IMG/VR virus record: IMGVR_UViG_3300036715_001606
Location: 1-29,505 of that record
Strand: one strand, 5' to 3'
Length of the DNA stretch: 29,505 nucleotides
DNA from: a virus
A program made the position numbers and the translations under genes. Positions 859 to 19,747 of this stretch are shown piece by piece; position 1 is the stretch's first letter, and each line of letters starts with the position of its first letter. The notes beneath the pieces are model-generated. The model ran no database searches. It was not told where the DNA came from and was given only the letters and a program-made list of their open reading frames with translations.

Positions 859-1148
859 GGCGTAACCGGAGTTGTGAGGGATACGGCGACGGTTGGTGTG
901 TAGGAGACTTGGCCAGAACCATCAATGATCTTCGTATCAATGTAAATGTTCTCAGTGTCCAGGCTCGCAGTGCTGAACGTCAACACATACGTGCCGAGCG
1001 ACGGCTTGGTGACGGTGCACGATCCAACCACAGCGCCTTTCTCGCTGTCCTTGCGGACGGATGCGGTGATGGTGAACGCGGAGATGTCTTGGAGCGCACC
1101 GTTGAGCAAGACGGTGCCTGTGATCTGTAGCAGCGCCCCCATCTTCAT
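855..1148 (-). CDS. Small beta-rich structural protein of unknown function
   Basis: A 97-residue protein beginning MKMGALLQITGTVLLNG. It has alternating hydrophobic strands (TITASVRKD, GTYVLTFSTA, IYIDTKIID) consistent with a single immunoglobulin-like or BppU-like beta sandwich, as found in phage baseplate or decoration proteins. No catalytic motif is seen. The start overlaps the portal stop (ATGA, 1145-1148) and the stop overlaps the next start, so it belongs to the late operon. The domain guess is by pattern only. A second in-frame Met lies two codons in. Confidence 0.55.
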   Translation of the reverse strand: MKMGALLQITGTVLLNGALQDISAFTITASVRKDSEKGAVVGSCTVTKPSLGTYVLTFSTASLDTENIYIDTKIIDGSGQVSYTPTVAVSLTTPVTP

Positions 1149-3025
1149 GACTTGTCTCCCCGGTCAATCGTCGCGGATTGTGCCGCGCCATCGTTGTGAA
1201 CGTCCACCTGCACACCGCCAACGTCCACCACAACATCAGCAGGCGGGGGGAGATGGATGTGCAGATCGCCGCGACCGTTGCCCATTGACTTGGTGATGAC
1301 AGGCTTCGCTTTCTTTGGCGCAGCAGGATCGCTACCATCAGCGGGGGCAATCGTTGCGCCATTCTCATCGAAGCCTGGTGGCGGGTCGGGCTTCTTGGGC
1401 TCAAAATTCTTCAGCGGGTCAAGCATCGCGTTGATCTGCTCTTCGGATAGAGTTGGGAACGCGGCAGCGATGAGCGCGTGACCAGACTCAGGCGGCAACG
1501 CGCCTGTCGCTACCGAGTCCACAATGCCTTGCAGCGAAGTGATCTGCGTTCCATTGAGCGCCGTCGCTTGAACGTCTGGTCCTGCCGCGCCAGCTGCTGC
1601 CATTCCGCCGGGTGCAGGGTCCGTGGTTTGGGTCAGCATGGGTTCGCCGTTCTCATCCAGCATCGGTTTCCCGGCGGCGTCGAGCATGGGCGTTCCTTGT
1701 CCTGGCGCGGCAGGGTTAGTGGTCGAGGCGCGTGCGTCCATTCCCAAACGCTCGCGCACTTCGTTAACATCAACGACGTTGTTGCTGAGATAGATCGCGT
1801 CAATGTCAGCTTGGATCTTCGGCGCAATGTCCTCTTCATCATCCCAGCCGAAGCACAGATCATCGATCTTGAAGTATTTGAGGATGATGAAATCAATTAG
1901 ATTCTTCACCCAACGCTGCAACGGCACCAAGCCGTCGAGTTGTGCTTGGTCAGCGTTGGACTCTGCAACAGCACGGTTGACCTGCGACACGAACGGCGTG
2001 CAAGAAACACTGAAGGTGTAGCAGATGATGCGCGCCAGCCACTCATCGTACAAATCCTTCAACGGTGGCGCCTTCGCTTCCTTGTAGGTGCTGGCAGACT
2101 CCTTCGACATGAAGCGAATGCTGCGCCGCTTGTCCTGATCATTCTTCATCAGGTTGTCGAAGTAATTTTGGAAGTGCTCTATCTGCTCCGGGGTCCAAGT
2201 TTCCGGTGAGCCAGCAATCGCATCAGGGATCGTGCCAGCTTCAAAGTACGCCAGCTGCGACAGTGCGCGACGAATGAGGGTGTGGACGGTGGTGATGATC
2301 TGCTCAACGTAACTGAACCCGTACACCTTATGGACGCGCGGGTTGCGTGGCTTGTAGATGAGCTCATCAGCGGTGTACTGGACGGCGGGCATGCCCTTGA
2401 GCGTCTGCTGATATGCAGGCTGAGGCGGCATCGGACGGCGACCGGACGCATCAATGAGCAACTTGATCGTCGCACCATCCATCGGTTCAAGCGAGTATAT
2501 TCCGCCGCCCAATGTGAAGCGCGGATAGATCGTCGGGGCATCCGTCACAAACACTTCTTCAAGCAACATCCGCAACCAATCATCCCACGTGTGGATCTGG
2601 TCGGGATACGCAAAGAAGTCTTTGAGCTGTTCACAGCGCTCATCTGGCTTCTTGTCTTTGTCCTTGGGGCGGATAGACCACGTCATGCGCGCAATCTGAT
2701 CCTTGCGAGTCTCGATCACAGCGCGCAGTACGTCGCAGTTGTCTGCGAGTGCGCGCATCTTATCGAAGCCAACAGGCTCATCGCCGCGCGGATTTGAACT
2801 GCTGAGGTTGTAGCCAACAGGATAGTCAAACTGCCGGCCCTTCACATCTTCCGGCGCAACGGGTGCCATGGGCTTGCTCGGCCCCATCCATTCGCCGCCG
2901 CCAACGATCATCTTCATGCCCGCAGCAACGCGGTCCATGAATGACTTTGGGATGAGCGCAGAGCGACCGCCGCCAGCATCAGCGCGATCCTTGGATGGGG
3001 GCATCTGGATCGGATCATCAGCCAT
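1145..3025 (-). CDS. Phage portal protein
   Basis: A 626-residue portal protein. The dodecameric portal forms the DNA entry/exit channel at a capsid vertex and docks the terminase motor. Recognised from its place directly after TerL and from portal-like segments: DNCDVLRAVIETRKDQIA (wing and clip), the EEVFVTDAPTIYPRF region, and an IICYTFSVSCTPFVSQVNRA helix before a NADQAQLDGLVPLQRWV stretch. The C-terminal ~170 residues form a Pro/Ala/Asp-rich extension containing a MLDAAGKPMLDENGEPML pseudo-repeat. The chosen ATG (3025) overlaps the last codons of terL by 8 nt; a longer in-frame extension upstream would lie wholly within terL and is disregarded. Confidence 0.88.
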   Translation of the reverse strand: MADDPIQMPPSKDRADAGGGRSALIPKSFMDRVAAGMKMIVGGGEWMGPSKPMAPVAPEDVKGRQFDYPVGYNLSSSNPRGDEPVGFDKMRALADNCDVLRAVIETRKDQIARMTWSIRPKDKDKKPDERCEQLKDFFAYPDQIHTWDDWLRMLLEEVFVTDAPTIYPRFTLGGGIYSLEPMDGATIKLLIDASGRRPMPPQPAYQQTLKGMPAVQYTADELIYKPRNPRVHKVYGFSYVEQIITTVHTLIRRALSQLAYFEAGTIPDAIAGSPETWTPEQIEHFQNYFDNLMKNDQDKRRSIRFMSKESASTYKEAKAPPLKDLYDEWLARIICYTFSVSCTPFVSQVNRAVAESNADQAQLDGLVPLQRWVKNLIDFIILKYFKIDDLCFGWDDEEDIAPKIQADIDAIYLSNNVVDVNEVRERLGMDARASTTNPAAPGQGTPMLDAAGKPMLDENGEPMLTQTTDPAPGGMAAAGAAGPDVQATALNGTQITSLQGIVDSVATGALPPESGHALIAAAFPTLSEEQINAMLDPLKNFEPKKPDPPPGFDENGATIAPADGSDPAAPKKAKPVITKSMGNGRGDLHIHLPPPADVVVDVGGVQVDVHNDGAAQSATIDRGDKS

Positions 3026-4565
3026 GAGCAGCATTCCTTTGAGCGTCAATTTGTTCGGACTTCTGCTTGTACCAATTGAAGATGCCCATGTTGCGGTCGC
3101 GGGACGCGTACCAATTGATGGCTTGCGTCCACGCGTCCACTTCGTCGTCATTCGTTCCATTGGGGAATGAACTCAGCTCACCCAAGAATGATTCTATGGC
3201 CGGGTCAATCGCTGGATCAGGCAACCAGAAGTTTCCCGCCTCATGCTGTGGCTGGATCGCGTATGCGCGAGCCGTCTTGCCGCCAGCAGGATTGATCGCA
3301 ACGACTCCAGGCAATTCATTCTTGATGGTCTCGATGACTGCCGAGCCGTTCGCCTTGTCCTCGATGAGAATGGCGACACACTCCGGGTACAACGCTTTCA
3401 TCGCGCGCACCGCCATCACCGTCGCGCCAAAGCCCATACGCTCTTTCAAACGCTTGATCAGGTACTTGTTCGAGCCTGTGCGGCCAACGACTTGGATGGC
3501 GACAAAGTCCGTGCCGTCCGTATCCTTGAACGTGCAATCAACGCTGATCACTTTCTCTTCGATCTGCGGAAGTGCGCGATAGAATTTCCAATGGCCGCGC
3601 GCAAAGACGTTTCCCCCGCGAGAGTCTGGGTGCTGCTGGAGTTGAGCTGCGGTGTGGTAGGCGCCGATGGAGACTTCCATCGCCTTGACTGCTTCTTCAT
3701 TCAGCCTGTTCGGGCACAGCAACTCCCCCTCAACAACGCGCGGATCGCAGAAGTTGATTTTGGTTTTGACGTTGACCGTCTGGACTTCTGTTGCAATGCC
3801 GCCGATGAAGATGGTGCGCTTGGATTCGTAGCGCATCGGAAGCACAAGATGTTCCCACACACCTTGCTGCTCGCGCAACAAGAAGCCGGTGAGATCATTC
3901 TCGTGGAGTCGCTGGTGAACAACAACCGCAGCGTCCTCAGCGGGATTGTTGAAGCGCGTGCTAAGCGTTCCCTTGAACCACTCGATGGAGTCTTTGCGCG
4001 CAATCTCGTTGTCAGCTTGCAACGCGCTCAGCGGATCGTCCACCAAGATGCGATTGCCGCCGAAGCCGGTGGCGCCAGACTCTGTGGATGTGACAAATCG
4101 CGTTCCGCGCGCAGTGTTCTCATAGCGTGACTTGACGTTCTGATCAGACGTCATCTGGAACAGATTGCCCCAGCAGTCTTGATACGCGCTGGACTCGATG
4201 ATGCGACGACTGTTGACCGCGTCGCGTATCGCCAAGTCTTTCGCAAAGCTCGCGCTCAACCATTGCGTCTGTGGAGCGTTCAACCACTCCCACGCTGGCC
4301 ACGCTTGTGATACGAGAGTAGACTTGAGCAGCCGGAACGGCATGTTTATGATCAGGCGGTTGATTTCGCCGCGCGTAATCGCTTGGAGATGATCACACAC
4401 CGTGTGGATGTGCCAGTTGTCCACATACTTCGTCGCAGGCTCCAACACAGGCCACGCGAACTCTCGGAAGAATGTAAAGAAGTCTGACCTTGCGCGGTCA
4501 GCTTGCTTGAACAGAATCGCCCGGTCAATCTCGTACAACGCGCGTTGCTTGATGAGCGCGTTCAA
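3018..4565 (-). CDS. terL: Terminase large subunit (packaging ATPase/nuclease)
   Basis: A 515-residue TerL, which pumps DNA into the prohead and cuts the concatemer. The N-terminal ATPase domain has a deviant Walker A, NMPFRLLKST (about 74-83, Lys81), and a Walker B, RILVDDP (Asp176/177). The C-terminal RNase H-like nuclease shows three acidic sites: SVDCTF (Asp343), IEDKANG (Glu402/Asp403) and NDDEVDAW (Asp474/477). The QHPDSRGGNVF segment between the domains is typical of the family. It overlaps terS upstream by ATGA and portal downstream by 8 nt, the usual packaging order. The Phe and Leu within Walker A replace the more common Pro and His, but Lys-Ser-Thr is kept. Confidence 0.93.
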   Translation of the reverse strand: MNALIKQRALYEIDRAILFKQADRARSDFFTFFREFAWPVLEPATKYVDNWHIHTVCDHLQAITRGEINRLIINMPFRLLKSTLVSQAWPAWEWLNAPQTQWLSASFAKDLAIRDAVNSRRIIESSAYQDCWGNLFQMTSDQNVKSRYENTARGTRFVTSTESGATGFGGNRILVDDPLSALQADNEIARKDSIEWFKGTLSTRFNNPAEDAAVVVHQRLHENDLTGFLLREQQGVWEHLVLPMRYESKRTIFIGGIATEVQTVNVKTKINFCDPRVVEGELLCPNRLNEEAVKAMEVSIGAYHTAAQLQQHPDSRGGNVFARGHWKFYRALPQIEEKVISVDCTFKDTDGTDFVAIQVVGRTGSNKYLIKRLKERMGFGATVMAVRAMKALYPECVAILIEDKANGSAVIETIKNELPGVVAINPAGGKTARAYAIQPQHEAGNFWLPDPAIDPAIESFLGELSSFPNGTNDDEVDAWTQAINWYASRDRNMGIFNWYKQKSEQIDAQRNAAHG

Positions 4566-4918
4566 CCGCCCGCATCCGGTTGGACCTTCGCAATCATCTG
4601 GCGCATGGCGAGCAATTCAGTCTCGCTGAGCCCACTCATCTTCGCCGCGTCGAATACGCGGAACGGTCCTTGATCGCTGTTCTCGATCTGGATGGGCATG
4701 CGCTTGTGCACATACGGAGCCGCGACCTTCGCTGCGTCAATGCGCAAGCTGAGTGGCGCATCTTCGCTCGTCATCAGCGTCAGCAGAAACTCCAGCGGAG
4801 CTTTCTTGCCGGAGAGAATGTGCTCCAGCGCTTTGTCTCTGAGCAGCTGCGCGCGTGACTTGGACCCTTTGGGCCTGCCACGCGGATTGGGTGATGGAGC
4901 GCCTTTCTTTGCCGCCAC
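4562..4918 (-). CDS. terS: Probable terminase small subunit
   Basis: A protein of 118 residues from the chosen start. The N-terminus carries a basic NPRGRPKGSKS segment (as in DUF5681-type proteins), followed by helices and a motif near APYVHKRMPIQIE that is common in small terminases. TerS recognises the packaging site and feeds DNA to TerL. Identity rests on position immediately upstream of terL (ATGA overlap) and on size and composition. Two GTG starts are possible. GTG at 4927 overlaps the only Shine-Dalgarno-like GGAG (4927-4930), whereas GTG at 4918 lies 8 nt behind it, so 4918 is preferred. The adjoining repeat region could hold its binding sites. Confidence 0.72.
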   Translation of the reverse strand: MAAKKGAPSPNPRGRPKGSKSRAQLLRDKALEHILSGKKAPLEFLLTLMTSEDAPLSLRIDAAKVAAPYVHKRMPIQIENSDQGPFRVFDAAKMSGLSETELLAMRQMIAKVQPDAGG

Positions 4919-5009
4919 AATAGCCACTCCAGGGAAAATGATTATTAATTCATTGTTCCAAACATTCCAGCGCCTGCCCCGCGCTCGATGCGAGTCTGCG
5001 TCAGAATTG

Positions 5010-5029
5010 TGAGAAAGAAAAGAACCTCA
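5010..5029 (-). promoter_or_regulatory. 20-bp element upstream of terS, shared with 12711-12730
   Basis: TGAGAAAGAAAAGANNCTCA on the plus strand, matching 18 of 20 bases at 12711-12730. Both copies lie upstream of minus-strand operons in the same orientation (about 90 and 50 nt from the start codons). TGAG and CTCA at the ends form a short inverted repeat. A promoter element or operator is inference. Confidence 0.45.
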
Positions 5030-5054
5030 ACTTTGCCGGCGCATGAGGGACGCT

Positions 5055-5170
5055 AGGGACGCTAGGGACGCTATTTCCGAAATTCTTTTCCCCGCGTTTC
5101 CCCGGCCCTCTCCGGGGGTTTCTCTTTTTGTCAGAGAAAGAAAGTTGAAAGTAGCGTCCCTAGCGTCCCT
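5055..5170. repeat. 19-bp perfect inverted repeat enclosing two smaller hairpins
   Basis: AGGGACGCTAGGGACGCTA (5055-5073) is the exact reverse complement of 5152-5170. With one bulged G the stem extends by TTTC/GAAA. Inside lie CCCCGG-6nt-CCGGGG (5100-5117) and TTTCTCT-7nt-AGAGAAA (5119-5139). The first inner hairpin is followed by a T-rich tract and could act as a plus-strand terminator. The whole could extrude as a cruciform, as origins or packaging sites sometimes do. Confidence 0.75.
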
Positions 5171-5249
5171 CAACCACTCGCGGCAAGCATCTTAGCGTCC
5201 CTCGTAGCGTCCCTCGTAGCGTCCCTCAGGCCCATTATAGCGTCCCTCT

Positions 5250-5284
5250 CCACAGGAGCCCACGCGAGATGGGCGATCTCCCCT
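5250..5284. repeat. Hairpin repeat, left copy (partner at 25486-25519)
   Basis: Begins with CCACAGGAGCCCACGC, identical over 16 bp to 25486-25501 and in the same orientation. Similarity continues as TGGGC then TCTCCCC. It can fold as GGAG-CCCA, a 7-nt loop, TGGG, a 4-nt bulge, CTCC. The partner folds the same way with different loop and bulge bases. Confidence 0.6.
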
Positions 5285-5449
5285 GACCCTGACCAACCCT
5301 ACCGGCATCGCCCGGTAGCGTCCCTCGGCCCGTTATAGCGTCCCTGTAGCGTCCCTCGGATGCGCAGCTTTGGAGGGGAATTACGGCCCCGGACGGCCCC
5401 AGAATCAGCATTGGATGATCTGCCCCTGAGCAAGTCGAGTTGGAGGTGA

Positions 5450-6919
5450 TCAGAAGTCGCCTGATACTACCCGCAGCCCAAACAAGAATCGAGTCGCGCC
5501 GGTCTTGCCGCGCTTTACCTTCCCCATCAGCTGGCTCGCCAAACGTCGCGACAAGTAATGCGCCGCCATCGGCGGTATCCCCCGCGCTTCGCTCCAAGCC
5601 TTGTAGGAGTCGTACAGTTTCGTCATCTCAATCTTCGCGTCAGCATCCAGCACACAACGGTCCTCAACAAACTGAGAGAGGGGGTTATTTTCTTGATACC
5701 AGTCCTCACGGGCCGCGTTACTGCTAGCAGGTTCATCGAAGCGACCACGCGCAACGAGTCGTTGATATCCTTCCACCGACCATCGTGCTATGCCTGGCAA
5801 TTCTTTCTCTAGCTTGTCGAGCAGCTTCGTATCTTCCTTGCCGTAAAACGAATTGCCTAGCTGGAGGATCAGGAAGCGTGTATTGATTGCATCGCTGGAG
5901 TCAGATAGTTGCGGCATCTCGTTGGAGAGCATCATTACGCGACTTTCCAAGACACTCTGAAGTGATGTCTTGTGTTTCCTGCCAACATCAACCGCGTCCC
6001 CGGCGGTGATCCGCAATAGCACTTCGATGACAGCCATGATGTCGGCTTTGTTGCTAAGTCTCGCATCGCTGATCAAGCAAAGTCTCTTGTCAATCAACGA
6101 CTCCAGCCCGAAGTCCTTGCCAAGACTATGGAGCGACGGCGACGACACCATCGAGCGACCTAGCAGCTTGGACAGGATATGCCCGATAGTACCTTTGCCG
6201 GCTCGCTTGGGGCCGACGATGATCATGCCCTTGTGCGCCCACGTATCACCGCTCAAGACGTAGCCCATCCACTCTTGTAGCATCTGGACTTCTGGCGCGT
6301 CATCCTCGAACAGATCGCGCAAAAACTTCATCCACGCTTTCGGTTCCTTTGCTTTCTCATCCCACTTCCACTCAGCGCCGTTGGGGATGAAGAGATGATG
6401 ATTGGATTGGACTTCGCCGCTGAGCATGTTCACGATCTGTCCGCGACAGACGATCTTGCCGCGCGCATCTTGCTCGATCCATTGCCCGTCAATCAGCGCG
6501 ACAGGCGACTTGTAGTGCGATGGTATCGAGACCAGCTGCTGGACCTGGTATTGGATTTCTGCGACGTTGCGCTGCGCACAGTTGAAGTCTGTCAGATTTC
6601 CTTCAGCATCAGCCGTCCGACAAGTTACTAACTTAGCATGAAGGAAGTGCGTCACATCTTCGTCGCTGCGCTGTGACCAGAGTTGCTTGTAGTAACTGTA
6701 CCAAGTCTCCCGGTAGTATGCGAATTGCCGGAGCTTATTCTTGGTGAAGAATCGTTCAAGCAATATCCCGGCAGCACGGAGCGAGTCGGTGCGCACAGAT
6801 GGCAGCACAGGGAATCGCTCATCTGCCTCTCGAATTGCTACGCGCTCAGCCTCAAGCAATGCGCGCGACTCTTCGCGGATCGCTTCGCGTTGAGCTTCTG
6901 TTTCAGTCGTCCGTGTCAT
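5450..6919 (-). CDS. SF3 helicase of the D5-like/phage primase-helicase family
   Basis: A 489-residue replicative helicase of superfamily 3, a ring-forming ATPase that unwinds the template. An N-terminal helical region (1-200) is followed by the SF3 core: Walker A GPKRAGKGT (236-244), Walker B CLISDA (281-286) and motif C VMMLSNEMP with sensor Asn333, then an arginine-bearing NTRFLIL. The C-terminal part resembles the winged-helix tail of phage/D5 primases (YLSRRLASQLMG). There is no N-terminal primase domain; a separate RepB-type primase is encoded just upstream in the same operon. It is the last gene before the repeat region, where initiator-type helicases often sit. The ATG at 6919 follows a GAGG Shine-Dalgarno. 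Confidence 0.88.
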   Translation of the reverse strand: MTRTTETEAQREAIREESRALLEAERVAIREADERFPVLPSVRTDSLRAAGILLERFFTKNKLRQFAYYRETWYSYYKQLWSQRSDEDVTHFLHAKLVTCRTADAEGNLTDFNCAQRNVAEIQYQVQQLVSIPSHYKSPVALIDGQWIEQDARGKIVCRGQIVNMLSGEVQSNHHLFIPNGAEWKWDEKAKEPKAWMKFLRDLFEDDAPEVQMLQEWMGYVLSGDTWAHKGMIIVGPKRAGKGTIGHILSKLLGRSMVSSPSLHSLGKDFGLESLIDKRLCLISDARLSNKADIMAVIEVLLRITAGDAVDVGRKHKTSLQSVLESRVMMLSNEMPQLSDSSDAINTRFLILQLGNSFYGKEDTKLLDKLEKELPGIARWSVEGYQRLVARGRFDEPASSNAAREDWYQENNPLSQFVEDRCVLDADAKIEMTKLYDSYKAWSEARGIPPMAAHYLSRRLASQLMGKVKRGKTGATRFLFGLRVVSGDF

Positions 6920-7341: not shown

Positions 7342-7541
7342 TTCTCCACCTCAATCACTTTCGCCTTCATCAACGCGACGGATTGGAGGCGCGACACGGT
7401 GATCATCATGTCGAGCTTGTGGTTGTAGCCTTCGCTCTGTGCGACGATCTTCCCCGCAGTCGTTTCCACGATGCGGAAGTAGTGCTGAGTCCTGCGGGTG
7501 AAGGTGGTGCGGCGCTTGAAGGTTTGGAATTCATATTTCAT
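7338..7541 (-). CDS. DUF1508/YegP-like small protein
   Basis: 67 residues from the ATG at 7541, which is preceded by AGGAGA at a good distance; longer in-frame starts lack a ribosome site. The HYFRIVETTAGKIVAQSEGY segment resembles the repeat of DUF1508/YegP proteins (phenylalanine strand, then I-A-x-SEGY, then a helix), here as one repeat. The biochemical role of that family is not established. It overlaps the downstream membrane protein by ATGA. Family assignment is by eye. Confidence 0.5.
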   Translation of the reverse strand: MKYEFQTFKRRTTFTRRTQHYFRIVETTAGKIVAQSEGYNHKLDMMITVSRLQSVALMKAKVIEVEK

Positions 7542-7582: not shown

Positions 7583-8497
7583 TCATTTGAGCATTTCCTT
7601 TTGCGCGCGCAACCAACCGATCAAGTCATTGATGTCGCGCTCTGAGCAATGACCGTGGTGGCAAACAAATCCGCCGTGAAACGAATTGAGTGGCTCAGGC
7701 TCCATGAAGTACGTGCCTGATGTCGCTTTGTCGGAGTGGGAGTCGGCCCACGGGCAAATGATCTCGTGGTAACCGGCCCGTATTTCCTCTTTGTAGTATC
7801 CGAGCTTCTGCAACCACTTGATGGCGATCGTGCGCTCGATGTCTATACCATTGCGTGGAGCTTCACGTGGCGGTGCGACGGCTTTCAACGTCAAGTTGAG
7901 TCCGTAGGCTGCTGCGATCTGCTCTGGGGTGTAGGTGATGGTGACGTCTGCTTCTGCGACACGCTGGATCCACACTTCCCCTTTCGGGCCGCGATACTTC
8001 GTCTTGCCATTCGCACCGACCGGAACGCGTGCCACGCGTGTTACACCTTTCATGCCTGGATCCATCTCGGCGGAAATGCCCGCACAGATCATCTCGTTGA
8101 TCAGAGACTCGGCGTGCTGGATGATGTGGATGGGGCGAGCGAGAAACAACCAAGCCTGAAAGTTGCCGGGGGAAGTCTCGATGAGTGCTGTGGGCTTCAT
8201 CTTCAGATCGCTCATCGGCAGCTTTGTGCCGAGATCATCGATCATGACGCAGTGGAGCGCAGAGAACATCACCTTGCGCCGGTAAAACTTTCCTTCAGGA
8301 GTCGCGTGGAAGGAAGACACGCACACATAGTTGTTGGCGAAGGGATTGAGCGTTGGAAGCTGTTTGCCGGGAATCCACGGCATCGTGTTCCATCTTCCAT
8401 CCGTCGCCGGATCGCCGGTGAACGAGTGGAGCGATGCCGCTGCACCCGGTTGGATGTAAAGGAAAAGTGTATCAAGGAAGAGTTGATTGCTGATCAT
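7583..8497 (-). CDS. RepB-type DNA primase with C-terminal zinc-binding motif
   Basis: 304 residues from the ATG at 8497, which overlaps the stop of the gene upstream. The N-terminal two thirds resemble the archaeo-eukaryotic-type primase domain of plasmid RepB/prophage primases: MIDDLGTK with catalytic-type Asp87/88, ETSPGNFQAWLFL and RVARVPVGANGK. The C-terminus has a candidate zinc ribbon, C249-x5-H255 and C280-HHGH-C285, recalling CHC2 primase fingers. It would synthesise primers for the DnaE-type polymerase. With the SF3 helicase in the same operon it forms a split primase/helicase system rather than the fused protein of many phages. Confidence 0.78.
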   Translation of the reverse strand: MISNQLFLDTLFLYIQPGAAASLHSFTGDPATDGRWNTMPWIPGKQLPTLNPFANNYVCVSSFHATPEGKFYRRKVMFSALHCVMIDDLGTKLPMSDLKMKPTALIETSPGNFQAWLFLARPIHIIQHAESLINEMICAGISAEMDPGMKGVTRVARVPVGANGKTKYRGPKGEVWIQRVAEADVTITYTPEQIAAAYGLNLTLKAVAPPREAPRNGIDIERTIAIKWLQKLGYYKEEIRAGYHEIICPWADSHSDKATSGTYFMEPEPLNSFHGGFVCHHGHCSERDINDLIGWLRAQKEMLK

Positions 8498-8676
8498 GGC
8501 TGCTTGATCACTTCGCTGATGCTGACCTTCGCTTCCCACGCTTCAATCAGCGCGAGAGCGTCATGCGGGCCGACCGTCACCAGCGCGACTCCAGACTGGT
8601 TGGGATTGTTGGCGCCGGCAGCGATTGACTTCAACGCTGCCTTCTTGAGAGCTTCGATGCGTTCGTGCTGGTTCAT
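8494..8676 (-). CDS. Small helical protein upstream of primase
   Basis: 60 residues starting MNQHERIEALKKAALKSIAA, mostly helical, with no recognised domain. The ATG at 8676 follows a strong GGAGG, and the stop overlaps the primase start (ATGA), so it may serve partly to couple primase translation. A hairpin lies just before its ribosome site. Confidence 0.6.
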   Translation of the reverse strand: MNQHERIEALKKAALKSIAAGANNPNQSGVALVTVGPHDALALIEAWEAKVSISEVIKQP

Positions 8677-8724: not shown

Positions 8725-9564
8725 TTACATCTTGGAATCGTCGGGCTGCGTCGCGGCAACAGCGTTGTAGTCCACCTTCACGCCGTCCCCCTTCACAGCT
8801 TCGTAGAAACGGGCGGCTGCGTTGAACAAGTCCGCATCCTCGATGTAGCCTTTGCGGGTGATCTTCCAGCCGCGCCAGCTGCCCTTGTCGTTGGACTCAG
8901 CAATGGTCTCGGCGTGGAAGATGTGCGCGAACATCGGCGGCGTGTAGCTGGAGCCGTTGTCCGCCTTGGCGACGTACGACTGGAGCTGCGTCATCAGCAT
9001 CTTGCTCTTCTTGATCTGCGTGGAAGAGAAAGACTGGACCGCTTGCACAGCGGTGCCGTCAGGACGCACCACAAGCACGTAGTGGACGCGCGTGTCGCGG
9101 ATCAGATCGCCGTTGGAGCCGAAGAGCTTGCCATCTTGCTCGCGGATTGCGCCGGTTGCGCGCTCGTGCGTGACGACTTCGACAGGCATCTCGCCTTTGA
9201 ATCCGCCACCAGTCTTGTCGTCAGCCCAGCGCAGGAACACGCGACGATAGCCACAGTACACAAGGTCAACGCCATCTTCATCCTTGAAGACTTCACTGGA
9301 GCTGGTGAGCAGCAGGTCACCCACTTCCGCATCTTCCACGTGGGCATCATCGTCCTTGTCCACCTGCGGGCTTCCCTTCTGCATGATGGCGAGGAAGGGA
9401 ATGGCGAAGGAATCGCGGTCAGCCGACTCCATGCCGGCACCGCTGTACTTGGCGAAGTCCGCGCCCATCGTTGCCGGCAACGCGTCACGCTTCGGTGCGT
9501 CGGTGGTCTTGGCGGCGACGTTCTTGCCGGGAGCTTTCTTATCAGTTGCTTTCTTGGTAGCCAT
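8725..9564 (-). CDS. Conserved phage replication-module protein, possible ssDNA-binding protein
   Basis: 279 residues. A basic Lys/Ala-rich N-terminus (1-27) precedes a globular part with PFLAIMQKGSPQVDKD, VYCGYRRVFLRWADDKTGGG, HYVLVVRPDG and FSSTQIKKSKMLMTQLQSY segments. It ends in a short Asp-containing tail (QPDDSKM). Proteins of this kind sit in replication modules beside helicase and primase genes, and a single-strand-binding or annealing role has often been suspected. No OB-fold signature is plain by eye, so the role is inference from context. The ATG at 9564 is preceded by AGAAAGG. Confidence 0.45.
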   Translation of the reverse strand: MATKKATDKKAPGKNVAAKTTDAPKRDALPATMGADFAKYSGAGMESADRDSFAIPFLAIMQKGSPQVDKDDDAHVEDAEVGDLLLTSSSEVFKDEDGVDLVYCGYRRVFLRWADDKTGGGFKGEMPVEVVTHERATGAIREQDGKLFGSNGDLIRDTRVHYVLVVRPDGTAVQAVQSFSSTQIKKSKMLMTQLQSYVAKADNGSSYTPPMFAHIFHAETIAESNDKGSWRGWKITRKGYIEDADLFNAAARFYEAVKGDGVKVDYNAVAATQPDDSKM

Positions 9565-9596
9565 GTTGCATTTTCCTTTCTATGGATGGGATTGTG

Positions 9597-10187
9597 TTAC
9601 TTGCGCGGCTTGACGACAGCGACGTTGTATGGGCGCGCACCAAACAAGTCGAGTGGGAATGGTTCTGCTGCTTCTGCGTCGGCCATTCGCTCCTTTACGA
9701 ATGCCTTGAGGGATTGATGGTTGATGGACTGGCTGAGTTCAGGCTCCAGCCCTTGCTGGGCGAGGGTGTTGGCCAATTCCTTGGCACTCTCCAACTCTTC
9801 ACGGTCAAAGTGAATGGACAGATCACTCTTGATCAATCCGCCGAAGCCGTGTTCAACGAGCCATTCCATGGCGCTGTCGCGATTGGCGACGGAGATGCCT
9901 ACGGTGACGTCTGGTTTGAGTTTGATCTCAAGGTTGTCGTCGGTGACGAATTGCTTCACGCCGCACGCCAACATTGCTTCAGGCAGATCCACTTCAGCAA
10001 TCTGCCTGAGTAAGTCCTTGGCATCCTTTAAGCGATCCTCACAAGCAGCAACAGACAGCGCAGCCTCATGCTGGAGTTTGGCGAGTGCGCTAATGGCTGC
10101 CAACTCTTCATTGTTCCCCTTCACCACAGCACTGGTGCCGGCTTTCTCGATGAGCTTGGATACTTCTGTTTGACGTTTGGTGGCCAT
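9597..10187 (-). CDS. Coiled-coil phage protein of replication module, function unknown
   Basis: 196 residues from the ATG at 10187, preceded by GGAG; a longer in-frame N-terminus lies within the upstream gene and is rejected. Residues about 5-70 are helical or coiled coil. They are followed by IAEVDLPEAMLACGVKQFVT, the LEIKLKPDVTVGIS strands, EWLVEHGFGGLIKSDLSIHF and a C-terminal NHQSLKAFVKERM helix. This order is a recurrent phage family found near ssDNA-binding and nuclease genes, with no established activity known to me. Start and stop overlap by 1 nt with the MazG-like gene. Confidence 0.6.
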   Translation of the reverse strand: MATKRQTEVSKLIEKAGTSAVVKGNNEELAAISALAKLQHEAALSVAACEDRLKDAKDLLRQIAEVDLPEAMLACGVKQFVTDDNLEIKLKPDVTVGISVANRDSAMEWLVEHGFGGLIKSDLSIHFDREELESAKELANTLAQQGLEPELSQSINHQSLKAFVKERMADAEAAEPFPLDLFGARPYNVAVVKPRK

Positions 10188-10708
10188 TAGCGTTTGTCTC
10201 CGTCGCCGCGAATCGTTCCAGCTTCCAGCCGACCGGAGAGCTTGTTGACGTTCTGCTCGATGGCATCCTTGAAGCTGCTGTTGCGGTACTTCAGATTCCA
10301 CAGCACCCACGACAACAGATTGAGCAAGGCTCCGTGCGCCTCGTGATTCTTGGCGGCGAGCTTCGCTGCATCCCAAAACTCACCATCCCGAATGCGCTTC
10401 TTTTCCACGCCACAGATGATGCCGGCGTAACGCATTGGAGGGTGCGCCATCAAGTATGGATCCATGGGCATCACGTGCCCTGCAACCTGGCTGAAGGGAA
10501 TGCCCAGCACGCGCGTCGAGTAGCGAGCGCAGTACCACAGAACGTCGCCTGCTTCCAAGATGATGTCTTCCGGCAGGATTGCAGCAGCCAACTCGCCACA
10601 TTCATCAGCGATGCCGAGCGCGAGATAGAATGGCTCAGCAGTCGGCGGATACTTCGCCACTGCGTTCGTCCATTCTGCGTACAGGTCCAACATTTCTTTC
10701 TCTTCCAC
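10187..10708 (-). CDS. MazG-like nucleotide pyrophosphohydrolase
   Basis: 173 residues. The all-alpha NTP-PPase core is seen as ALGIADECGELAAA followed by ILEAGDVLWYCARYS, giving the ExxE...ExxD metal-binding pattern of MazG/dUTPase-like enzymes. A later NVNKLSGRLEAGTIRGDGDK segment matches the end of the MazG core, with about 60 extra residues inserted between. Such enzymes hydrolyse (d)NTPs to monophosphates; in phages they are proposed to clean the nucleotide pool or lower ppGpp. GTG start at 10708, six nt after GGAGAA. It lies in the minus-strand replication operon. Confidence 0.75.
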   Translation of the reverse strand: MEEKEMLDLYAEWTNAVAKYPPTAEPFYLALGIADECGELAAAILPEDIILEAGDVLWYCARYSTRVLGIPFSQVAGHVMPMDPYLMAHPPMRYAGIICGVEKKRIRDGEFWDAAKLAAKNHEAHGALLNLLSWVLWNLKYRNSSFKDAIEQNVNKLSGRLEAGTIRGDGDKR

Positions 10709-14674: not shown

Positions 14675-15256
14675 ATGACACTCGACCAAATCAAGAAGCT
14701 CACCACCGCTGAATTGCTGTCGCTGTACAATGAGCTGAAGGAAGCTCAGCTCAAACGCTTCGCAGATCGAGCGACCGCTGAGAAGCGCGTTGAGGAAGCG
14801 TTGCGCGAGAAAGGCAAGCTGGACGGCCCGATGACGAACAAGGAAGCCCAGAACATCAGGGACACGGCGAAGGCTGGCGTGAATGACGGGACGCCACTGC
14901 GGCAGATGAAGGCACCTAAGAGCCGCGCGGCGAAGCCCGAGCCAGCGCCGAAAGGCAAGGCTGCTGCGAAGCCTGCCCCCGGCAAGAAGTCCGCCCCTAC
15001 GCCCAAGAGCAAGGCTGGTGCCCCCACCAAGAACCAGACCTTCACCGCCATCGATGAAAAGTTGAAGGGGTACAACCCGAAGCAATTGCGCATCCAGTCT
15101 TCCAGTGCGCGGGCGAAGGTCTTGGAGTTCATCAAGAAGTCGGATGCCGGCAAAACGCGCAACCAGATTGACGCGCACTTCCCGAATGGCGACGTCAACG
15201 TGAGCAGCGCGTTGTACTTCCTGTCTGCGTACGGATTTGTGAAGGTGGTCGAATGA
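14675..15256 (+). CDS. Low-complexity (Ala/Lys/Pro) protein with C-terminal winged-helix-like domain
   Basis: 193 residues from the ATG at 14675, chosen because GAGG lies 8 nt upstream and MTLDQIKKLTTAELLSLYNE looks like a natural N-terminus; an in-frame ATG at 14585 would add 30 residues. Three parts: an N-terminal helical segment with KRFADRATAEKRVEEAL, a disordered basic linker of Ala/Pro/Lys/Gly (about 75-125, histone H1-like in composition) and a C-terminal domain (about 140-193) with KVLEFIKKS and NVSSALYFLSAYGFVKVV resembling a winged helix. A DNA-binding or host-regulatory role is inference. Confidence 0.68.
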   Translation: MTLDQIKKLTTAELLSLYNELKEAQLKRFADRATAEKRVEEALREKGKLDGPMTNKEAQNIRDTAKAGVNDGTPLRQMKAPKSRAAKPEPAPKGKAAAKPAPGKKSAPTPKSKAGAPTKNQTFTAIDEKLKGYNPKQLRIQSSSARAKVLEFIKKSDAGKTRNQIDAHFPNGDVNVSSALYFLSAYGFVKVVE

Positions 15257-16185
15257 CCATGATCATCGGCGCTGGACTGAGCGGCTTGATAGCAGCCGTT
15301 CAGTTCCCCACAGCGCAGGTCATCGAGTCGAATGGGCCGGAGCAAGTCGCCCATAAGGCGGTGCTCCGGTTCCGCACAGACTCGCTATCACGCCTCACTG
15401 GCATCCCCTTTCGCCAAGTGCTTGTTCGGAAGAGCATCTGGTACGACGGTGGGCATTGTGACCCTGACATGCAGATCGCCAATCTGTATTCGCGCAAGAC
15501 AAATGGCATGTACTTGGATCGCTCAATCTGGAACATTGAATCAGTTGAGCGGTTCATTGCGCCAGAGAATATCCAGCAGCAGCTGGTTGATGTCGTCGGC
15601 CCACGCATCACGTGGAACCAGCGACTTGGGGAAGCTGACATTCTGGATTCACACGCTTTGCGCGATCCAGTCATCAGCACCGTCCCCATGTCCATCCTTC
15701 ACAAGATGATGGTTGGTGACGCAGAGGATCAGGAGCAGTTCTTCAACTCTCCGATTGTTGTGGACCGCTATCGCATTCCAAACTGCGACGTATTCCAGAC
15801 CGTCTACTACCCTGATCCTGTGTCCTCAATCTACCGAGCATCCATCACTGGCGACCTTCTAATCATCGAACGCAACGGACATTTGCCGGATGGGGATGAG
15901 CTGGCTGATGTTTGCTTCTCATTCGGCATCGATGTGCGCGATTTGGAAGTGATCGAAGAGTCGCATACACAACGCTTCGGCAAGATCACTCCCATCAACG
16001 ACTCGTGGCGGCGCAACTTCATTTACTCGATGACACAACGCTTCGGCATTTACTCACTGGGGCGATTCGCCATCTGGAAAAACATCTTGCTGGATGATGT
16101 TGTGAAGGACGCAGCAGTCATCAAGCGACTCATCCAGCAAGGCAACTATGGCGCAACTCTCCACCACAACAAGGGTCAATCATGA
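15253..16185 (+). CDS. FAD/NAD(P)-binding Rossmann-type protein, possible flavoprotein oxidoreductase
   Basis: 310 residues. The N-terminus is a clear dinucleotide-binding beta-alpha-beta: MIIGAGLSGLIAAVQFPTAQ with GxGxxG at Gly6/8/11 and an acidic residue (Glu24) ending the second strand, typical of FAD-binding oxidoreductases. Later segments (DSHALRDPVISTVPMSIL, NCDVFQTVYYPDPVSSIYRA) fit the two-domain glutathione-reductase/mutase-like fold, but the helix after the Rossmann motif is short. Substrate unknown. ATGA overlaps link it to the genes on both sides, including the ThyX-like gene that also uses FAD. Related proteins in other phages are usually annotated only as NAD(P)/FAD-dependent. 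Confidence 0.65.
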   Translation: MTMIIGAGLSGLIAAVQFPTAQVIESNGPEQVAHKAVLRFRTDSLSRLTGIPFRQVLVRKSIWYDGGHCDPDMQIANLYSRKTNGMYLDRSIWNIESVERFIAPENIQQQLVDVVGPRITWNQRLGEADILDSHALRDPVISTVPMSILHKMMVGDAEDQEQFFNSPIVVDRYRIPNCDVFQTVYYPDPVSSIYRASITGDLLIIERNGHLPDGDELADVCFSFGIDVRDLEVIEESHTQRFGKITPINDSWRRNFIYSMTQRFGIYSLGRFAIWKNILLDDVVKDAAVIKRLIQQGNYGATLHHNKGQS

Positions 16186-16949
16186 AAGTCTCATTGCTGT
16201 CCCATACACCAGAAGCACTCACGCTGCTCTTGAAAACCAAGGGCACCCGGCTCGCACACGACTCTGATCCTGCAACGTGGTCGGAAGAGAAACGCCAAGA
16301 ACATCTAGAGTACATGCGCGACACCATCAAGTCATCGTGGGAGTTTGTTGACTACACCTTCAAGATTGAGGGGGTCACCCGTGCATTCACCCATCAGCTG
16401 GTACGAACGCGCACCGGTTCGTACGCGCAAGAAGCGATGCGAGTTGTTGACGCGAGCGAGCATCCGGTTGATTTGCCGCCGAGCATCGAAGCTAACCCGG
16501 AGTTTCACGACATCTGGGATCGCGGCGTGCACGAAGTGATGGATGCTTATTCGCATCTGCTTTCTAGTGGCGCATCTCCGCAAGATGCACGCGGCTTGCT
16601 GCCGACTAACATCACCACTTCCATCATCGCCAAGTTCAATCTTCGCGGACTCAGTGAGATGGCGAAGTTGCGGCTGTGCACCAGGACGCAAGGTGAATAT
16701 CAAAACGTCTTTCGGATGATGCGCGAGCTTGTCTGTGAAGTGCATCCGTGGGCGCGTGAGTTCATCGATGTCTATTGTGCGGCCCACGGCGCTTGCGCAT
16801 TCCCTCGTTACGGGAAAGTCGAGTGCCCGTTGTACAAGTACGTCATCCCGCATGAGCGCATCGAAGCCACCCGGCAAATCGTCCGCATGGCAGCAGACAG
16901 CGAGCGCTATGAAGCTGCGCCGGTAGCGCAGAACGGGATGGCGATGTGA
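16182..16949 (+). CDS. ThyX-like flavin-dependent thymidylate synthase with altered signature
   Basis: 255 residues. ThyX makes dTMP from dUMP with methylene-tetrahydrofolate, FAD and NADPH. Recognisable parts are the FKIEGVTRAFTHQLVRTRTG strand and signature region (about 60-80), NITTSIIAKFNLRGLSEM, the nucleotide-site segment KLRLCTRTQGEYQ and a Cys-containing C-terminus (ACAFPRYGKVECPLYKY). The RHRx7S signature reads R75-T76-R77...A85: His becomes Thr, and the usual Ser position is Ala. That position normally helps activate dUMP, so activity may be changed. It starts with ATGA overlap after the flavoprotein gene. A dUMP-modifying enzyme is an alternative. Confidence 0.8.
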   Translation: MKVSLLSHTPEALTLLLKTKGTRLAHDSDPATWSEEKRQEHLEYMRDTIKSSWEFVDYTFKIEGVTRAFTHQLVRTRTGSYAQEAMRVVDASEHPVDLPPSIEANPEFHDIWDRGVHEVMDAYSHLLSSGASPQDARGLLPTNITTSIIAKFNLRGLSEMAKLRLCTRTQGEYQNVFRMMRELVCEVHPWAREFIDVYCAAHGACAFPRYGKVECPLYKYVIPHERIEATRQIVRMAADSERYEAAPVAQNGMAM

Positions 16950-17185
16950 GCAAGCAAAATGGGGGGAGCGTGTACAGGTCTGCTCTGAGATCAGATATAG
17001 AGCAGCTATCTTTCCGCGAACAATTGATATTGAATTGGTCGTACGGTTACAGATTCGTTCACGTTTTGAAGATGACAGATGAAGCCATGGGTGAGCTACT
17101 TGAAATATCTACAAATCGCGTTGGGCAAATCCGTGATAGATCACTTACCAAGCTCGCCCAATTGGGCGATGGGGGAGAGCTGTGA
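16946..17185 (+). CDS. Stand-alone sigma-70 region 4-like DNA-binding protein
   Basis: 79 residues, GTG start overlapping the ThyX-like stop. LSFREQLILNWSYG (about 21-34) matches region 4.1 (L-x-x-R-E-x-x-I/V-L-x-x-x-[YF]-G). TDEAMGELLEISTNRVGQIRD (about 44-64) followed by RSLTKL matches the region 4.2 helix-turn-helix with its R-[VI]-x-Q-I-x-x-[KR]-[AS]-L-x-K-L recognition end. Regions 1-3 are absent, so it is not a complete sigma factor. A -35-type DNA-binding regulator, or a factor altering RNA polymerase promoter choice, is plausible. About nine extra residues sit between 4.1 and 4.2 compared with housekeeping sigma. Confidence 0.72.
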   Translation: MSKQNGGSVYRSALRSDIEQLSFREQLILNWSYGYRFVHVLKMTDEAMGELLEISTNRVGQIRDRSLTKLAQLGDGGEL

Positions 17186-17439
17186 GCAAGCCAATTAATG
17201 GTCGCTATGGACAATGGGCTGGTAATCCGAAAGGATCGCCAGAAGATAAGACGCGGTGCGTGGAGCAAGTCTATCCAGCGAGCAGTCGCCAGGGGTTTAT
17301 CGGGCGGCAATGCTCGCGTCCACGCGGCCACGGAAAGGATGGCGAGTATTGCTCACAGCACGGACGCGACACCACCAACATCGCACCGCTGAAGTACGGA
17401 GTCACTCATCATCATCGCCAGCGTCTCAACCGTCACTAA
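17182..17439 (+). CDS. Small Cys/His-rich protein, possible zinc binder
   Basis: 85 residues, GTG start overlapping the previous stop and the same first codons (GTGAGCAAGC) as the gene before it. Contains RCVEQVYPASSRQGF, then RQCSRPRGHGKDGEYCSQHG: three Cys and a His spaced like a small zinc knuckle seen in other short phage ORFs. The C-terminus is His/Arg-rich. Function unknown. Confidence 0.6.
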   Translation: MSKPINGRYGQWAGNPKGSPEDKTRCVEQVYPASSRQGFIGRQCSRPRGHGKDGEYCSQHGRDTTNIAPLKYGVTHHHRQRLNRH

Positions 17440-17456
17440 CCAGAAAGGATAACACC

Positions 17457-17648
17457 ATGTTTACAATTATGGGTCTTGCATTCGCTTTCATCGGCATCAT
17501 CTTCACCCTTCAAGGTGGTAGCAGCGTTACGCGCCTCAATCGTTTCATCGGTATCCCGTGCTGCTTGCTGGCGATTGCTTGCGCGCTGTACGTTGTCATT
17601 GCGCTGATTTGGCGCTTCGGCTCGCTCATTGTGCAGGTGATGCCATGA
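17457..17648 (+). CDS. Small two-span membrane protein
   Basis: 63 residues from the ATG at 17457, which follows CCAGAAAGG; the frame upstream of it lies within the preceding gene. Two hydrophobic helices, about 3-22 (MGLAFAFIGIIFTLQGG) and about 34-53 (IPCCLLAIACALYVVIALIW), joined by a short basic loop (TRLNRF). No lysis-cassette context, so a holin role is not assumed. Stop overlaps the next ATG. Confidence 0.65.
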   Translation: MFTIMGLAFAFIGIIFTLQGGSSVTRLNRFIGIPCCLLAIACALYVVIALIWRFGSLIVQVMP

Positions 17649-17815
17649 TGCGCTTCTATACCGCAGCTGATTGCCGGCGCAAAGCTGATCAGCACTACGA
17701 GATGGCTGGACTTGCGCGGCAAGACGGCGACAGCAAGGATGCTGCCGAGCAAACACGCAAGGCAAAGGAGTGGGACCAGCGAGCGAGTGAAGGCGGCTGG
17801 GAGGGCAACGCATGA
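17645..17815 (+). CDS. Small charged helical protein
   Basis: 56 residues starting MMRFYTAADCRRKADQHYEM, nearly all helical and highly charged, repeating Ala-Arg-Lys-x-Asp patterns; resembles a short TPR-like helical hairpin. No known family. ATGA overlaps on both sides support it as a real gene in the operon. Confidence 0.6.
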   Translation: MMRFYTAADCRRKADQHYEMAGLARQDGDSKDAAEQTRKAKEWDQRASEGGWEGNA

Positions 17816-18276
17816 TCACTCTCCCAGCAGCTGTCGTGGATCTGGACAATTGCATCAGCGACGATCTATGGCGGCATAAGTTCATGGAGCTTCACTTGCC
17901 GATGCCGAATGATCGGTACGCGAAGTACCACGAGCAGTGCCACTTCGACACCTTCCTCAATCGCCAAGCTATGCGCGACCTTTCGTGGCGCTACAAGATC
18001 ATCATCATCACCAGCCGTCCCGAAGCTGTCCGCATGCAAACTGAAGGCTGGTTGCGAAAGTGGAACATTGATACGAGTCTCGTGTTGATGCGCCCGGACG
18101 ACAACCACGAAGGATCGGTGGATCTGAAGCGTAAGTTGCTTCGCTCGATTCCTGACACATTCCAAGTTCAACACGCGATTGATGACCGCGTGGACATTCT
18201 CGATATGTATGCTGATGAGGGCATCTGTCGAGTCCAACGAGTTTTCATCCACACCACGGAGCAAGCGCACCCATGA
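17812..18276 (+). CDS. HAD-superfamily phosphatase (polynucleotide 3'-phosphatase/nucleotidase-like)
   Basis: 154 residues. HAD motifs in order: motif I VVDLDNCISDD (nucleophile Asp10, acid/base Asp12), motif II IIIITSRPEA (Ser68), a Lys near 106-108 in VDLKRKLL, and motif IV AIDDRVD (Asp124/125). The ITSRPE...WL pattern and the small helical cap are typical of phage PNK-type 3'-phosphatases and 5'(3')-deoxyribonucleotidases. No kinase domain is present. Likely roles are end repair of nicked nucleic acid or nucleotide dephosphorylation; substrate cannot be fixed from sequence. Coupled by ATGA to both neighbours. Confidence 0.75.
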   Translation: MITLPAAVVDLDNCISDDLWRHKFMELHLPMPNDRYAKYHEQCHFDTFLNRQAMRDLSWRYKIIIITSRPEAVRMQTEGWLRKWNIDTSLVLMRPDDNHEGSVDLKRKLLRSIPDTFQVQHAIDDRVDILDMYADEGICRVQRVFIHTTEQAHP

Positions 18277-18896
18277 TCAGTATCCTATGTAACCATTGCA
18301 AGCAATTCAACAGCATCTACATCACCGTTGAAGACGTTGTTGGCCGTACGTTCCGCTGCAGCAACTGTGGACAGTTCACGCACGTGCTCCAGATCGAGCC
18401 GCACGAGCAGACCATCAGCCCGGAAGTCTCCGGCATGTTCGCTCAGCTAGAGCGCGCACTGAACGGTGAGTCGCAGCGCGGCGTTCCTCTGGACAACATC
18501 AAGGAGCATCGCGGACAGAAGCCCACTCCAATCGAATTTCCATTTGCCGGGGCAATACCGTGCTCGATGGGTGGTGTGCTGTGCGATCCCCCGCCAAATC
18601 CAGTTCATGCCGACTCCATTCTGCGCTCTGGCGCGGACACGTACGCTGCGCGCAACGCATTGTACGGCGACTCGTACAAGACCTTCGGCAAGGTGATGGA
18701 AGCGATCATGCCAGCAGACTACCAGCCCAACAGTGTTGCTGGATGGAACCGGCTCGGCATCTTCACGATGCTCGTATCGAAGATCACGCGCTACGCTGCG
18801 AACATGCCGGACGGCGGTCACGCTGATTCGGCGCACGACATGATGGTGTATGCGGCGATGCTGGAAGAGCTGACCAACCAGCAGGGAGAGCACTGA
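18273..18896 (+). CDS. Zinc-ribbon plus DUF6378-like protein
   Basis: 207 residues in two parts. Residues 1-46 form a zinc ribbon: LCNHCKQF (Cys6/Cys9) and FRCSNCGQF (Cys29/Cys32). The C-terminal ~90 residues fit the DUF6378 pattern common in phages: RNALYGDSYKTFGKVMEAIM, WNRLGIFTMLVSKITRYAAN, then HADSAHDMMVYAAMLEEL, an all-helical domain with conserved His/Asp reminiscent of nucleotide-handling MazG-like folds. The middle is a linker. Function unproven. ATGA and TGATG junctions with its neighbours place it in the operon with the proofreading exonuclease. Confidence 0.68.
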   Translation: MISILCNHCKQFNSIYITVEDVVGRTFRCSNCGQFTHVLQIEPHEQTISPEVSGMFAQLERALNGESQRGVPLDNIKEHRGQKPTPIEFPFAGAIPCSMGGVLCDPPPNPVHADSILRSGADTYAARNALYGDSYKTFGKVMEAIMPADYQPNSVAGWNRLGIFTMLVSKITRYAANMPDGGHADSAHDMMVYAAMLEELTNQQGEH

Positions 18897-19537: not shown

Positions 19538-19747
19538 GTGGACAAGTTTCTATTCACCAATGTCGCACCGGGGATCATCCGGTGCGACTTCTACGATCCC
19601 GAAGCTAGTACGCCTGCGACTGTTGAAAGGCTCGTGCTGATGATCGGGATTACCGAAGCAATGCAGATGGCGGTTCTGCTGATGGATGAAATCAAGAAAG
19701 CAGAAATCATCAAAGCTGCTCCCGACAAGAAAGGAAAGCGCAAGTGA
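19538..19747 (+). CDS. Small protein between exonuclease and polymerase
   Basis: 69 residues, GTG start 3 nt after the exonuclease stop. N-terminal beta segment (KFLFTNVAPGIIRCDFYD), a central hydrophobic helix (LVLMIGITEAMQMAVLLMDE) and a basic tail (APDKKGKRK). Not recognised. Its conserved slot between exonuclease and polymerase (GTGA overlap with the latter) suggests a possible polymerase-associated role, but nothing in the sequence proves it. Confidence 0.55.
   Translation: MDKFLFTNVAPGIIRCDFYDPEASTPATVERLVLMIGITEAMQMAVLLMDEIKKAEIIKAAPDKKGKRK

Follow-up and report, generated by a model that had tools for sequence, protein, structure and literature searches.

A head-to-head iteron array 3' of an SF3 helicase gene is a probable replication origin of an uncultivated tailed phage

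Gene content of the record

The window, by which we mean the whole stretch of DNA analysed here, comprises the 29,505 bases (29.5 kb) of IMG/VR record IMGVR_UViG_3300036715_001606. A dense array of short repeats is located between the terminase genes and the gene of an SF3 helicase, as had been described in a sequence-only reading of the window. The features discussed below are as follows.

1145-3160, minus strand: portal protein
3018-4565, minus strand: TerL (Terminase_6C)
4562-4927, minus strand: TerS-like protein (phrog_641, 2.7e-6), the gene of which starts 119 bp from the array
5046-5072, minus strand: three tandem 9-bp iterons (AGGGACGCT on the plus strand), inverted half of the array core
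5074-5152: 79-bp core spacer, presumed melting region, 48% GC compared with 56% in the window
5153-5170, plus strand: pair of tandem 9-bp iterons AGCGTCCCT, forming the other half of the array core
5194-5247, plus strand: four additional iterons with spacings of 12, 12 and 21 bp
5317-5356, plus strand: three helicase-proximal iterons with spacings of 20 and 11 bp
5450-6919, minus strand: SF3 helicase (D5/P4-alpha/SaPI-Rep-like; DUF5906, Pox_D5), stop at 5450
5468-5683, minus strand: predicted winged helix, helicase residues 413-484, proposed iteron-binding domain (structure model; Pox_D5 match)
7583-8539, minus strand: RepB-type primase, probable partner of the helicase
19744-22509, plus-strand part of the record: DNA polymerase

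The plus-strand part also encodes an exonuclease-like protein, a thymidylate synthase and polynucleotide kinase-like proteins; the genes of the latter two, together with that of the phage's own DNA polymerase, occupy 15253-18896 and 19744-22509. Two genes at 8725-10376 match the gp33 and gp34 families of cyanophage Pam3, the function of which is unknown. Because of its gene content, including the portal, TerL and DNA polymerase, the record represents not a satellite but a tailed phage that encodes much of the machinery for its replication. PICIs are mobile elements recognised as satellites without their own packaging and replication polymerase set, and the presence of portal, TerL and DNA polymerase genes places the record outside this class.

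Anatomy of the iteron array

The 9-mer AGCGTCCCT occurs exactly twelve times, always within 5046-5356 and nowhere else in the record. Three copies are on the minus strand (at 5046, 5055 and 5064) and nine on the plus strand (at 5153, 5162, 5194, 5206, 5218, 5239, 5317, 5337 and 5348), in agreement with the three inverted and nine direct copies counted in the sequence-only reading. The chance expectation for the whole window is 0.22 copies, and the maximum found in 100 shuffled sequences was two. The best 9-mer per 350 bp reached at most three copies in 20 shuffles, compared with the twelve observed. The start-to-start spacings are 9, 9, 89, 9, 32, 12, 12, 21, 78, 20 and 11 bp, and the regular 9- and 12-bp spacing noted previously for parts of the array corresponds to the steps of 9, 9, 9, 12 and 12.

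The core of the array is formed by three tandem 9-mers and, across a spacer of 79 bp, two tandem 9-mers in the opposed orientation; seven further copies are positioned on the helicase side. Read in the 5' to 3' sense of the helicase gene, the array begins with three copies (spacings 11 and 20), continues after a step of 78 with four copies (21, 12 and 12), and after a step of 32 reaches the two tandem copies, the 79-bp spacer and the three oppositely oriented tandem copies. The array adjoins the helicase gene on its 3' side and is upstream of the TerS-like gene on the same strand. The extended 19-bp unit GGCCC[A/G]TTATAGCGTCCCT is present in two copies, as claimed, at 5229-5247 and 5327-5345, which are 95% identical.

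The inverted repeat around the spacer is perfect, as had been reported, but its arms are 21 bp long (5044-5064 and 5152-5172) and not 19 bp. The repeat results from the head-to-head arrangement of the tandem iterons, of which it is the inner part. The inverted iterons also account for the strong folding predicted for the complete stretch (z = -6.0). The two hairpins proposed within the 79-bp spacer do exist, but they are no better than those of shuffled sequences (z = -0.9 for the spacer alone), and a cruciform as a functional element was therefore rejected. A direct blastn comparison of the array region with named phages yielded no matches.

The helicase and its predicted winged helix

The nearest relative of the helicase in the PDB is the SaPI5 Rep protein (7ola), which was identified by sequence profile (3e-27) and was also the top fold match. 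In the structure model, residues 413-484 are predicted with a pLDDT of about 90 and contain secondary structure elements in the order helix-strand-helix-helix-strand-strand, as in a winged helix. We propose that the helicase is an origin-binding, self-loading initiator and that this C-terminal winged helix would bind the iterons.

Nearest relatives of the window helicase

The closest helicase, encoded in L247, is 69% identical to that of the window, and the sequence of L247 stops four bases past the match. The closest relative with sequence available on the 3' side is L431, the helicase of which is 51% identical and is accompanied by twelve copies of ATCGTCG. The core of the L431 array consists of two tandem copies, a gap of 77 bp and two inverted tandem copies, and the corresponding core gap in the window is 89. 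A subcluster of the L431 array has spacings of 11-12 bp and resembles the 12-bp subcluster of the window. The spacers start alike beside the core cluster on the helicase side, with ACTTTCAACTT in the window and ACTTTCTACTT in L431. Between the two, the layout is conserved and the iteron has changed. The sequence-only reading had named a lack of conservation in relatives as a refutation; this lack was not observed for position and layout, which are conserved, and applies only to the sequence of the 9-mer.

Arrays of the same layout beside other SF3 helicases

A strict detector that assumes no sequence was applied to 80 helicases from IMG/VR with a relationship to the Rhizobium prophage type; it requires units of 8-12 bp repeated in tandem and an inverted partner at a distance of 50-220 bp. 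Arrays were identified on the 3' side of the helicase gene in 31 of the 80 cases, but in none of the 80 regions on the 5' side and in none of 80 shuffles. The period of the tandem units was nine in 28 of the 31 matches and eight in the other three. With a looser rule, under which a 7-mer had to occur at least five times within 700 bp and in both orientations, arrays were present 3' of the helicase in 61/80 loci of the Rhizobium-type set, compared with 2/80 on the 5' side and 2/400 shuffles, and in 12/57 loci with window-like helicases, compared with 2/57 and 1/285, respectively; since both helicase sets were selected by similarity to array-bearing or window-like helicases, these proportions are not unbiased frequencies. 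The remaining 45 of the 57 window-like helicases, including those of the Sasha and 9NA types, have no such array on the 3' side by the looser rule. Neither does phage RR1-A, although its helicase shares 77% identity with an array-bearing one.

The iterons vary among the phages and include AGCGTCCCT, AGCCTCCCT, ATCCTCCCT, ACCTTCCCT, CCTTCCAAA and others. The core gap of the surveyed arrays is about 75-115 bp, centred on 92 bp, and the GC content of the spacer is below that of the contig in all 20 loci measured. The layout is present in Aurantimonas phage AmM-1, Pseudanabaena phage Pan4, Synechococcus phage Sc-Yong805-1, Rhodobacter phage RcapNL, Microcystis phage Mae-JY28 and Listeria phage PSA. 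In the Rhizobium-type loci L342-L412, purines and pyrimidines often alternate over a part of the core spacer close to the left cluster (GCGCGCGTG-like), and an element resembling YATGCGTA is often present close to the right cluster; it is possible that these are second conserved motifs. In L471 and L472, arrays of eight to nine copies of AAGTGGT and GCGCAAC are upstream, not downstream, of the helicase gene.

The distance between iterons follows the overall distance between helicases (r 0.37-0.43, permutation p 0.0005), in an analysis in which some automatically called iterons are uncertain in orientation and the iteron of L431 was set by hand. Co-evolution of the iteron specifically with the C-terminal domain was not detected beyond the overall divergence of the helicases (partial Mantel r 0.05, p 0.22).

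Occurrence of the same iteron in other genomes

A scan of IMG/VR and GTDB genomes for paired copies of AGCGTCCCT yielded 243 loci. Among the 30 loci in which the copies form 9-bp tandem or head-to-head arrays, eight had an SF3 helicase in the fetched DNA, compared with none of the 213 loci with other layouts. The array adjoins the helicase in seven of the eight helicase-bearing loci, and the eighth, L055, shows only a cut helicase fragment. In L012, L039, L040, L130 (Rhizobium), L246 (a Myxococcales assembly), L423 and L426, the array is on the 3' side of the helicase gene, at a distance within about 800 bp in L040 and shorter in the others. The helicases of these loci are only about 20% identical overall to that of the window, and even the ATPase domains of those from L130, L039, L012 and L423 are only about 26% identical to it. 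The occurrence of AGCGTCCCT beside distant helicases, while the closest relative uses another iteron, may reflect convergence, retention or origin swapping.

The fetched stretches of L029, L038, L082, L108, L186 and L425 contain arrays and no SF3 helicase. The copies of AGCGTCCCT in L029, L038, L082 and L108 are arranged head to head, and the L029 array adjoins a phrog_9306 gene, as does that of L130. Many other pattern matches were discarded as coding or simple periodic repeats with spacings of 12 bp or 27/30 bp and no SF3 helicase; those in L424 and L427 are inside frames of 2000 amino acids, likewise with no SF3 helicase. In L163, L176 and L132 (Myxococcales UBA1660), pairs of AGCGTCCCT with an inner spacing of 25 bp recur at intervals, on both strands in L163, in a layout unrelated to that of the window.

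Packaging, regulation and replication as functions of the array

The sequence-only reading offered three functions for the array: a packaging site, an operator or a replication origin. At a cos or pac site, TerS would bind the repeats and TerL would cut there, which is in line with the start of the TerS-like gene 119 bp from the array and the TerL gene following it. Furthermore, a related array in RcapNL (TGCGTCCCT/ATCGTCCCT) is directly beside the cohesive ends, and more copies are present at the start of that genome. Nevertheless, packaging is very unlikely to be the main function. The strict detector found no array in 80 loci of TerL relatives, which is a limited test because many of these loci are short. 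The genes beyond the arrays are mostly not those of terminases: beside window-like helicases they encode a DNA methyltransferase or ParB in seven of ten cases, and a head protein, TerL and an unknown protein in one case each. Beyond the arrays of the Rhizobium type there are phrog_9306 genes (11/46), Holliday junction resolvase genes (10/46) and other unknowns, and no terminase gene. The feature that stays constant is the placement of the array beside the helicase.

The RcapNL copies are on both sides of the cohesive ends (L331:4266-4586 and L489:1-90), and the origin and cos would therefore be interleaved after circularisation of the genome, so that an overlap of origin and packaging functions is possible. 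A region that serves both purposes and couples replication to packaging is a variant of the origin reading and compatible with it. Terminase genes are beside the arrays in the window, L012, L423 and L449; however, most array-bearing relatives lack a terminase gene next to the array, and we consider a dual role unlikely for the window.

Dense repeats can also serve as operators, and the array is upstream of terS on the same strand, where a regulator bound to the repeats could control the TerS-TerL-portal operon as an early/late switch. We regard this function as extremely unlikely. A scan for promoters of the sigma-70-like type identified none at 4500-5700, and positive evidence for an operator was not found. 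A switch would explain neither the core gap of about 75-115 bp nor the link of the arrays to SF3 helicases rather than to any particular downstream gene. Autorepression by the helicase could coexist with an origin.

The replication-origin option is strongly supported: arrays of this architecture accompany the SF3 helicases of many phages, and an origin annotated in a phage has the same organisation. The array is very probably a replication origin of the SF3-Rep kind known from SaPIs, PICIs, P4 and Sfi21, with iterons that the C-terminal winged helix of the helicase would bind. The cumulative GC-skew, which had been suggested as a check, has its minimum at 7374, about 2 kb from the array and not at it, in a record that may be partial and in which the gene strand confounds the skew.

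Proposed mechanism of replication initiation

Based on the layout of the array and the model of the helicase, a mechanism of initiation can be proposed. The helicase, which is encoded immediately 5' of the array on the same strand, would bind AGCGTCCCT by its C-terminal winged-helix domain. Because the clusters face each other head to head, they would load it onto both flanks of the 79-bp spacer in opposed orientations, probably in the form of two hexamers. Melting of the spacer would follow, and the RepB-type primase would prime synthesis, after which the phage's own DNA polymerase (19744-22509) would extend the two forks. The extra copies on the helicase side may raise occupancy or set the copy number. 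Dense repeats that lacked an explanation thus become a testable origin-initiator pair of an uncultivated phage.

Comparison with known origins

The annotated origin of Streptococcus phage Sfi21 is a non-coding region of 302 bp that directly follows the 3' end of an SF3 "primase" gene, and this element has been described as an independent replication origin (PMC6356513). The strict detector, for which Sfi21 served as a positive control, finds head-to-head tandem 8-mers there (TTTAGTTACTTAGTTA and TAACTAAGTAACTAAA), 89 bp apart. The Sfi21 origin (PER element) shares its placement and head-to-head tandem iterons with the window; it differs in the 8-bp iteron TTAGTTAC, a very AT-rich spacer and a distant helicase. 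Phage P4 also has an SF3 helicase, and its crr, which is needed in cis for replication, is directly 3' of the alpha gene and has repeats in both orientations, but P4 has two separate cis regions (crr and ori), a fused primase and the iteron GGTGAACA. The strict detector gave no match in P4 crr.

The C-terminal domains of SaPI Rep and, in vitro, of Cch2 bind iterons that directly follow the respective genes (PMC7581432). SCCmec Cch2 is, like the window protein, an SF3 helicase, and direct repeats in this position are recognised by its C-terminal domain (PMC7581432); however, it has only three 5-nt iterons and does not belong to a phage. The likeness to PICIs and SaPIs includes the D5-like SF3 helicase, with SaPI5 Rep 7ola as the closest solved structure, the position immediately 3' of the rep or helicase gene (stop at 5450 and array at 5046-5356 in the window) and two opposed iteron sets around a less GC-rich spacer, which in the window is only moderately AT-rich. 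Unlike PICIs and SaPIs, the window belongs to a tailed phage with TerL, portal and DNA polymerase genes and a separate RepB-type primase, and its array has the iteron AGCGTCCCT in twelve copies, with extra subclusters on the helicase side.

An organisation in which iteron sets of opposed orientation enclose a melting region on the 3' side of an SF3 rep gene has been described as restricted to PICIs, and our survey conflicts with this restriction. It is reasonably likely that the organisation called unique to PICIs is a common replicon of tailed phages, with a conserved layout and iterons of about 9 bp that diversify fast. If this is true, a phage replicon would have been shared with PICIs or inherited by them, and the pairs of helicase and iteron would represent a natural specificity code. 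Since the layout is present beside 61 of the 80 SF3 helicases surveyed in one group of phage proteins, an exchange of the replicon between phages and satellites is probable. Dozens of such pairs are available for studying origin recognition by a hexameric helicase, and head-to-head repeats of about 9 bp just 3' of an SF3 helicase gene provide a rule for finding origins in phage genomes. The layout itself is known from small virus satellites, and its wide spread in tailed phages is the more interesting result.
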